The notes under the pieces were generated by a model. That model was not told where the DNA came from. It was given only the letters and a program-made list of their open reading frames with translations, and searched no databases. This document shows, one piece after another, positions 9,829-12,764 of a DNA stretch of 64,000 bases (within the stretch, counting starts at the first letter, position 1; every line of letters begins with the position of its first letter). This DNA is from an uncultured Leptolyngbyaceae cyanobacterium (GTDB lineage: Bacteria > Cyanobacteriota > Cyanobacteriia > Leptolyngbyales > Leptolyngbyaceae), in assembly GCA_938023035.1 (NCBI GenBank), contig CALIDI010000026.1, positions 62,001 through 126,000 of the forward strand. Direction: 5' to 3'. Made by a program: the position numbers and the translations under genes.

Positions 9829-10321
9829 TTAATGTGCCCTCCAGTTACAAACCTATCATCGCAGTTACAGTTCGGTTTGTCGGGTGTAGAAAACCCCTGC
9901 TTTTTTCGTATCCACCACCCGATAAAACCGTATACGGTTAACCGAAGAATAGCGACTTGCTGAGTGGTTGTAGACAAGGTGGATGCCAAAACCTGATTGA
10001 CTAACAAAATTTGAACGCCCTCTCTCCCACAACGGGCGCGGGGCTTTGCACTCAGCTTCTCGAATTGAAGTCTCTTCTCCGGTAGCAGCAGAGGGGATTT
10101 AGGGATGAGGAAAAAAGAGAGGCTAGCGCCGGTCATCATTTTTATTCATTGATTGGGGATAGAATCTTGCATTTTGCCCTTTTTGCAGTGGCTGGATTTA
10201 TCTTTCAACCCTTCTGCTTGCTTTCTGACCAAAGCTGCACTTCGCGCACAAGATTTCAAGGAACCAAGCGTCAATTGAGATGACTCCGTTACAATAAGTG
10301 AACGTCGTTTTTGAGTTTCCT
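9829..10321. other. Intergenic region with degenerate repeat sequence
   Basis: The part around 10010-10115 (CCTCTCTCCC ... AGGGGATTTAGGGATGAG) resembles the arms of the palindromic elements at 18864-19000 and 45669-45804, so it may be a decayed relative. A TACAAT hexamer at 10290-10295 just before rseP could be its -10 box, though no -35 box stands at proper spacing. Confidence 0.35.
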
Positions 10322-11407
10322 ATGTCTGTTCTGGCTGCGATCGCCGTTCTTGCTATCCTCATTGTTGTCCACGAGCTAGGTCACTTTGCGGCAGCGCGTT
10401 TACAGGGGATTTATGCAAACCGCTTCTCAATTGGGTTTGGCCCGATCCTATGGAAATATCAGGGCCGGGATACAGAATATGCTGTGCGGGCCTTTCCCCT
10501 GGGTGGGTTTGTTGGTTTTCCCGATGACGATCCAGAATCCTATGGAGTGGATCCTCGCGACCCCAACCTGCTGAAAAATCGGCCCGTAATGGATCGGGTG
10601 ATTGTAATTAGTGCTGGAGTGGTGGCCAACTTGATTTTTGCCTACTTGTTACTCGTGACCCAAGTTGGTCTATCAGGGGTACAAGAGTTTCAGCCAGAGC
10701 CGGGGGTTTTGGTACCTGATGTGCGTACCGAGCTAAGCTCGGCAGCTGCAAAAGCAGGCATCCAACCAGGGGATGTAATTTTGGCAGTGAATGGCACAGA
10801 ATTAGGGGCAACTCGCGATGCCATTCAAAAGTTGATGGTAGAAATTCAGGGTAGCCCTAATCAGCCACTACAACTGACGGTGCAACGAGATGGTCAGCGA
10901 CTGGCTCAGCCTTTGACTGTCATTCCTCAGCTATCCGAAGATGGCAAGGGCCGAATTGGGGTGCAATTGTCTCCCAATGGCACGATTGAGCGTCGCCGTT
11001 TGAGCAACCCGTTCGATATTTTGACTACGGCTGCAACAGAGTTTCAGCGGATTGCGGTATTAACGGTGCAAGGGTTTGGGCAACTGCTGACAAATTTTGG
11101 GCAGGTGGCCAACCAAGTAGCAGGCCCTGTCAAGATTGTGGCAGAGGGCGCAAAGCTGGCTAATTCCGATGCCTCGAACCTTTTTACCTTTGGGGCACTG
11201 ATTAGCATTAACTTGGCTATTATTAACATCCTGCCCTTACCCGCTCTGGATGGAGGGCACCTAGCCTTTTTGCTGATTGAGGCTCTGCGGGGCAAGCCCC
11301 TACCCAACCGGGTTCAAGAAGGCGTGATGCAAACAGGACTAATGCTGCTCCTTGGTTTGGGTATTTTCTTAATTATTCGTGATACGGCCAATTTAATTCC
11401 CCAGTGA
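10322..11407 (+). CDS. rseP: RIP metalloprotease, site-2 protease family
   Basis: 361 residues. The zinc-site motif HELGH occurs in the first transmembrane helix ([18 protein letters not shown]). A PDZ domain lies around residues 120-215 ([17 protein letters not shown]). The second conserved membrane motif [11 protein letters not shown] near residue 310 supplies the zinc-binding aspartate. RseP-type proteases cut anti-sigma factors or signal-peptide remnants inside the membrane. The frame is open from a GTG at 10298, but the ATG at 10322 gives the standard start. The stop overlaps the GTG start of nth by four bases, so rseP, nth and rpsN are co-transcribed. Confidence 0.93.
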
Positions 11408-12540
11408 GTACTCCCCGTAAGCGCGCCAGCAAGAAGCAGCGGGCGCTTGAAATTTTGCAACGGCTCCATCAACTGTATCCCGATGCTAAATGTTCGCTGG
11501 ATTATGCAACGCCCCTGCAACTGCTGGTGGCTACCATTCTCTCCGCTCAGTGTACCGATGAACGGGTTAACCTAGTGACACCGGCTCTGTTTGCTCGCTT
11601 TCCCGATGCAGCGGCTTTTGCTAAGGCGGACATTACTGAGATTGAGCAACTGGTGCATTCAACCGGTTTTTATCGTAATAAGGCGAAAAATATCCAGGGG
11701 GCTTGCCGCCAAATTATGGAGCGGCATGGTGGTGAGGTGCCTCAGTTGATGGAGGATTTGCTTGCTTTGCCAGGGGTAGCCCGTAAGACCGCGAATGTGG
11801 TGCTGGCAAATGCCTTTGGAATTAACATGGGTGTAACGGTGGATACCCATGTAAAGCGGCTAAGCTACCGCCTGGGGTTAACGCAACAGACTGACCCGAT
11901 TCGGATTGAGCGGGATTTGATGCCCCTATTGCCCCAGACAGAATGGGAAAATTGGTCCATTCGGCTGATTTACCATGGGCGAGCAGTTTGTATGGCTCGC
12001 AACCCGCAGTGCGATCGCTGCCAATTGGCCGATCTCTGCCCTTCCGCAGGGCAGGTGGCGGCGACTCCGGCTAAAAAGTCAGCAACCAAATCTCAAAAGT
12101 CTGCGGCGATCCCAGCCAAGGCAACCGACCGGTCAGCCCCCCTTGATTTCTCTCAAAGAACTTCCCAAATGGGCGGCCCATTTAGTACAATTAGCAATTA
12201 TGTCTTTAACTTTTACAGGAGAGCAGCGAGATTATTCATGGCAAAGAAGAGCATGGTGGAACGCGATCTTAAGCGCGATAAGCTGATCGAAAAGTACGCT
12301 AAAAAACGGGAAGAGTTGAAAGCGGCCTTTGCGGCGGCGACCAACCAACAGGAAAAACTAGACATCCATCGCAAGTTGCAGCAGTTACCACGTAATAGCA
12401 ATCCGACACGTCATCGCAACCGCTGCTGGGCAACGGGTCGCCCTCGCGGTTACTATCGCGACTTTGGTCTGTGCCGCCATTCTCTACGGGAGATGGCCCA
12501 CCAAGGGTTGTTACCTGGGGTTGTTAAGTCAAGCTGGTAA
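11404..12540 (+). CDS. nth: Endonuclease III, reading frame continuing in frame into ribosomal protein S14
   Basis: The first roughly 215 residues are a complete endonuclease III, a DNA glycosylase/AP lyase of base-excision repair that removes oxidised pyrimidines. The helix-hairpin-helix [12 protein letters not shown] contains the catalytic lysine, VDTHV the catalytic aspartate, and C-x6-C-x2-C-x5-C ([17 protein letters not shown]) binds the 4Fe-4S cluster. The start is GTG, overlapping the rseP stop. Instead of stopping after the cluster, the frame runs through a roughly 60-residue Ala/Lys/Ser-rich segment without a stop codon and straight into rpsN. Either a true fusion or extension, or a lost stop. 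The independent rpsN start makes separate S14 synthesis likely; see the finding. Confidence 0.85.
12238..12540 (+). CDS. rpsN: 30S ribosomal protein S14
   Basis: 100 residues from ATG 12238: [20 protein letters not shown], then the family signature [20 protein letters not shown] and C-terminal [10 protein letters not shown]. It is the long, zinc-free S14 form with RNA-binding basic residues, typical of cyanobacteria and plastids. An AGGAG sequence lies about 15 bases upstream, slightly far but usable, and a TACAAT hexamer (12186-12191) could be a private -10 box. The gene lies entirely within the 3' part of the open frame of nth. It stands outside the main ribosomal protein operons, as is usual in cyanobacteria. 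Confidence 0.93.
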
Positions 12541-12764
12541 TTCAATTTTTTCTGCTCGGATCGAGCGTTTTGGCATAAAGAGACGCCATATGGCTTTCTG
12601 GGCTTGAATCCCTGATGAAAGATGAAAAGCATTGAATCTGACCGTTTTACTGTCAGGCAATAGGGGCTTTAAGCAGACCACTGAAACCCTTGATGATTTA
12701 CCACAGAGACACGAACGGCACTGAGGGAGGGGTTCTTTGTTCTCTGTGCCTTTGTAATTAGGTT

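Follow-up and report, generated by a model that had tools for sequence, protein, structure and literature searches.

Does the open frame that leads from nth, the gene for endonuclease III, into rpsN, the gene for ribosomal protein S14, encode a fused protein in this cyanobacterium, or have two ordinary neighbours been joined by accident? In the window, by which we mean the whole 64,000-nucleotide stretch of DNA that was analysed, the open reading frame (ORF) list and translation gave one open frame of 378 codons on the + strand, running from GTG 11404 to TAA 12538, with the S14 ATG at 12238 in phase with the nth GTG. An earlier note had described a shared frame without a stop between nth and the S14 ATG, across a joint of roughly 60 residues. 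Frame 0 is indeed open to its first stop at 12538, and the joint measures 66 residues from the end of the PF10576 match (residue 212) to the S14 methionine. Because the nth frame contains no stop, translational read-through is not needed to explain a joined product. Stops within the joint occur in frame +2, at 12072, 12144, 12183, 12192 and 12207. Frame +1 is likewise open across the joint (11975-12286, + strand, 103 codons, stop at 12284), showing how few stops this stretch carries by chance.

Both parts of the frame matched their families over the full profile. Residues 11-203 of Nth matched TIGR01083 with 264.2 bits against a curated cut-off of 211.7 (profile positions 1-192 of 192), and the iron-sulfur loop was complete with its four cysteines (PF10576, residues 196-212, 17/17 positions); residues 279-378 matched the S14 family NF006477 with 139.1 bits against a cut-off of 77 (profile positions 1-101 of 101). 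Elsewhere in the same genome a second match to the Nth part was 31% identical. A PF00253 search of this genome found one S14 copy above cut-off; the genome is 95.89% complete, so a further S14 copy could lie on missing sequence. The search also returned a second match, which is not S14: it scores under the cut-off, is interrupted by a stop and sits within an RNase E/G-like ORF, on the minus strand. As no other S14 scored above cut-off, free S14 presumably comes from ATG 12238. The gene upstream of nth encodes what we take, from an HExxH motif (HELGH), to be a site-2-protease/RseP-like protein, and an ORF of a congener is 85% identical to it. Its TGA (11405-11407) overlaps the GTG start of nth in the four bases GTGA at 11404-11407, an arrangement that suggests translational coupling of nth with the upstream gene. 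The features of the locus are collected in Table 1.

Table 1. Features of the nth-rpsN locus, in window positions
Feature	Position	Strand	Basis
Upstream gene, site-2-protease/RseP-like	10298..11407	+	ORF list; HExxH motif (HELGH)
nth core, endonuclease III, with C-x6-C-x2-C-x5-C cluster at its end	11404..12051	+	TIGR01083; PF00730, PF00633, PF10576
nth C-terminal tail, Ala/Lys/Ser/Pro-rich, 92 nt up to displaced stop	12052..12143	+	
C6 run just 5' of displaced stop, candidate site of a 1-nt length change	12137..12142	+	
TGA aligned with the congener nth stop, one base off the nth frame	12144..12146	+	8/8 scoring schemes, one congener
Probable one-time intergenic stretch with rpsN leader, currently without a stop in the nth frame	12147..12237	+	
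TACAAT, -10-like element of rpsN, position common to relatives	12186..12191	+	
TGTCTTT box near expected 5' end of rpsN leader	12201..12207	+	
AGGAG, Shine-Dalgarno-like, 16 nt before the S14 ATG (long spacing)	12217..12221	+	sequence
rpsN, ribosomal protein S14, 100 aa	12238..12540	+	NF006477, PF00253

Many cyanobacteria carry nth and rpsN side by side on one strand, and the earlier note had proposed comparing their spacing and frame among relatives. We compared 151 loci from relatives and the window's own genome, of which 94 were non-redundant with nth followed by S14, and 92 of these had the two genes within 1 kb, the other two having gaps over 1 kb. Left out were 7 of the 151 loci as exact duplicates (near-duplicates were kept) and 50 of the 151 that had no S14 in the stretch examined, some of these stretches being short enough that the genes may still adjoin there. 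Same-family relatives (G002-G005, G014, G032) were assigned by exact locus identity to Leptolyngbya, Myxacorys, Lyngbya, Phormidesmis, Leptolyngbyaceae and Tildeniella contigs. A stop between nth and rpsN was absent in 1 of the 92 adjacent pairs, that of the window itself, which resembles the ordinary cyanobacterial pair in order, strand and kind of rpsN leader but differs from it in that the other 91 all keep the nth stop before S14. A class-wide search of 388 genomes found matches with E of 1e-80 or below in 311; among the matches listed, 18 cover Nth and S14 in a single frame, 17 of them interrupted by 1 to 7 stops and the window's own by none, a figure that serves as a supporting count only, with some in-frame pairs (e.g. 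L019) appearing as two matches. Long open frames of 445 aa (G033), 431 aa (G003) and 353 aa (G048) had hinted at recurrent fusion, and we rejected this: L031, L019, L051, L039 and L055 have separate nth and S14 frames. The joint fell into the three frames in 48, 26 and 20 of the 94 loci, where the excess of frame 0 is uninformative because loci were recruited with a fused query. As none of the other 91 adjacent pairs is fused and the linker bears no coding signature, this is, as judged from the sequences compared, not a conserved multidomain fusion protein. In those other pairs the nth tail continues for 0 to 50 codons after residue 216 and the nearest nth stop lies 8 nt before the S14 ATG; 4 of the 91 are one substitution or one indel short of an open joint, so a single chance event suffices for one case in 92. 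Among titles and abstract openings, drawn largely from outside subscription papers, we found none naming an Nth-S14 fusion.

The fate of the nth stop was examined against the sole congener among the matches listed (G001, locus L011), whose nth is 84% identical and ends in TAA, 31 codons beyond the equivalent of residue 216 in the window. In pairwise alignments of tails plus leaders with this one congener, that TAA aligned to the TGA at 12144-12146 under all eight of the scoring schemes used. From codon 216 to the stop the tail measures 92 nt in the window against 93 nt (31 codons) in the congener; being one base short, it leaves TGA 12144 outside the nth frame. The stop was thus probably displaced rather than mutated, and on this alignment the locus belongs with stop displacements by indel: the apparent homologous stop is present, off frame by one base. 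The earlier note's proposal that the nth stop was lost therefore holds with a correction, as the TGA that aligns with the congener's stop persists one base off frame. Seven more distant relatives gave no convincing alignment of the nth tail. Past the stop, gaps between window and congener were not multiples of three in the printed alignment from one scheme. We observed a second instance of a drifting nth end in L008 (G027), whose nth tail reaches into the -10-like region of rpsN and ends 36 nt short of the S14 ATG, and L035 (G018) of the same genus, where an earlier stop shortens nth by 21 codons.

The strongest competitor to displacement by indel supposes that the stop went by substitution, or that this nth simply has a long tail, the fusion again being incidental. 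The variable length of nth tails, some of which reach the rpsN promoter region as in L008, fits such an origin, as does the finding that, of the four relatives a single step short of an open joint, three would reach it by a substitution. Set against these is the congener stop, which under every scheme aligned with an intact TGA lying off frame, and we judge the absence of an indel unlikely.

Codon usage was consistent with a frame that has run out of its gene. Per codon, the Nth core scored +0.143 and S14 +0.08 against -0.147 for 12145-12237, which scores as non-coding. The nth tail before the TGA scored approximately zero (-0.24 in all over 12052-12141), so that the two sides of the TGA differ only modestly in coding signal. 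The scores weakly prefer a late frame change, at 12129-12143, by about 1.6 log units.

The S14 part of the frame has retained what look like its own expression signals. In most relatives a -10-like TANNNT followed by a TGTCTTT-like box lies before rpsN, usually 23 to 44 nt from the S14 ATG. This arrangement was present at 78 of the 92 adjacent rpsN genes, the window's own included, compared with 17.05 in shuffles, and at 14 of the 22 rpsN genes without a close nth, compared with 3.78, both counts coming from a post hoc pattern that was loosened after a stricter version missed the window's site. The stricter version (C or T before TGT) matched 50 of the 92 adjacent genes and 10 of the 22 lacking a close nth, against 2.55 and 0.62 in shuffles, but not our own. 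Since the arrangement also occurs where nth is not close, it belongs with rpsN and not with nth. A consensus promoter scan of the window's own region gave one site, TACAAT, against 0.5 in shuffles, which taken alone is no better than chance; the weight of this putative site comes from its conservation among relatives. A genome-wide scan for the leader-box pattern, which is unable to match the window's own rpsN site, showed no signal (2 matches on the forward strand and 0 on the reverse, where the control gave 2 and 3), Rfam had no match over 11300-12700 up to E 1, and the leader at 12200-12260 gave no stable fold (z 1.29). The TGTCTTT-like box, a few bases past the -10-like site, recurs at rpsN of many cyanobacteria, also where nth lies elsewhere, and it may serve as a promoter start region or in control of S14 through the leader. 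On these signals translation of S14 most likely begins at its own ATG, 12238.

Taken together, we consider it highly probable that a one-nucleotide change, whether a mutation or a missed base, displaced the nth stop, that the joint is incidental, and that S14 is expressed from its own signals. Under this explanation nth and rpsN would be two ordinary neighbours that became joined in frame in this genome. We infer a net contraction of one nucleotide within 12075-12143, perhaps in the C6 run, that would have shifted the TGA off frame; the nth frame would then by chance be open through 31 codons of former intergenic DNA and enter rpsN in phase, and S14 would still be expressed through the promoter-like site, leader and ATG of rpsN. 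Should the change be a true mutation, every ribosome starting at GTG 11404 would yield Nth, an incidental linker and an S14 domain, with the fused product at the level of nth expression, which we infer to be low. Should sequencing instead have skipped a base, the cell would make normal separate proteins and nothing unusual would have occurred.

Between mutation and sequencing error we find about equal support. The earlier note had named a sequencing error in the joint (12060-12237), restoring a stop, as what would speak against its reading; the evidence appears to point to an indel in just that interval, which would fit a mutation and an error alike. Five ORF pairs elsewhere in the window that were suspected to be broken genes proved to be separate proteins, the congener's neighbouring genes aligned to the window in one frame each, and 25 runs of at least six G or C, the C6 run included, lie within ORFs that stay open. 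The window thus shows no general frameshift problem and a generally error-ridden assembly is not favoured, a weak argument as regards the open ORFs because ORFs are chosen for openness.

Were the printed sequence right, endonuclease III in this lineage might exist only as an Nth-S14 chimera beside free S14 from the internal start, with the glycosylase built into, or poisoning, 30S subunits; this we hold to be quite improbable. Slippage on the C6 run, programmed or sloppy, in which a -1 slip after the CCC at 12139-12141 would free an Nth of normal length and give two forms of the enzyme, appears more doubtful still: the arithmetic fits, with frame-0 codons GCC CCC CTT becoming CCT TGA (12144) in the -1 frame, but a canonical X XXY YYZ heptamer was not found by eye, the fold of 12130-12200 is unremarkable (z -0.42), and the congener does not share the run. 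A functional fusion kept by selection, such as a ribosome-tethered repair enzyme or a coupling of the S14 pool to repair, has two complete domains in an open frame to recommend it and is no less remote, being absent from every other adjacent pair, congener included, with a linker past the displaced stop that scores non-coding and overlaps the rpsN promoter-like region.

Stop-codon shift with C-terminal extension was reportedly treated by Vakhrusheva et al. in 2011. Two further reports, PMC4494051 (yeast and fly) and PMC4161906, describe stop-codon shift, or C-terminal extension, by stop loss or frameshift, and in the former the one putative gene fusion turned out to be replicated assembly errors. 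The nth-rpsN locus is like these cases in that a gene end moves downstream into formerly non-coding DNA, and differs in that the extended nth frame enters the next gene in phase and ends at its stop. PMC3711429 ascribes singleton reading-frame transitions in prokaryotic genomes to sequencing errors or recent indels (or to false positives or orphan recoding); where such a transition lies close to the 3' end, indels are preferred over errors. Our case shares with those singletons a frame change in one genome, whereas theirs lie inside one predicted gene and ours joins two.

The open frame is thus a correct and rare observation whose most likely reading is an ordinary one: in a single genome the nth stop has been displaced, and S14 is expressed independently. 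Of the two readings that the earlier note had offered, a lost stop with S14 made from its own start is supported, with the correction given above; the other, a repair enzyme made with an S14 tail, would follow from the printed bases, but its absence from the other 91 pairs and the non-coding score of the post-stop joint speak against selection or function. As a caution, one base in the variable tail of a gene can open a frame across two genes. If the printed sequence is right, translation of nth would inevitably produce the Nth-S14 chimera as a side product, one that shows no sign of being selected for, and the locus would be a natural test of how far a cell tolerates a large N-terminal extension on some of its S14.
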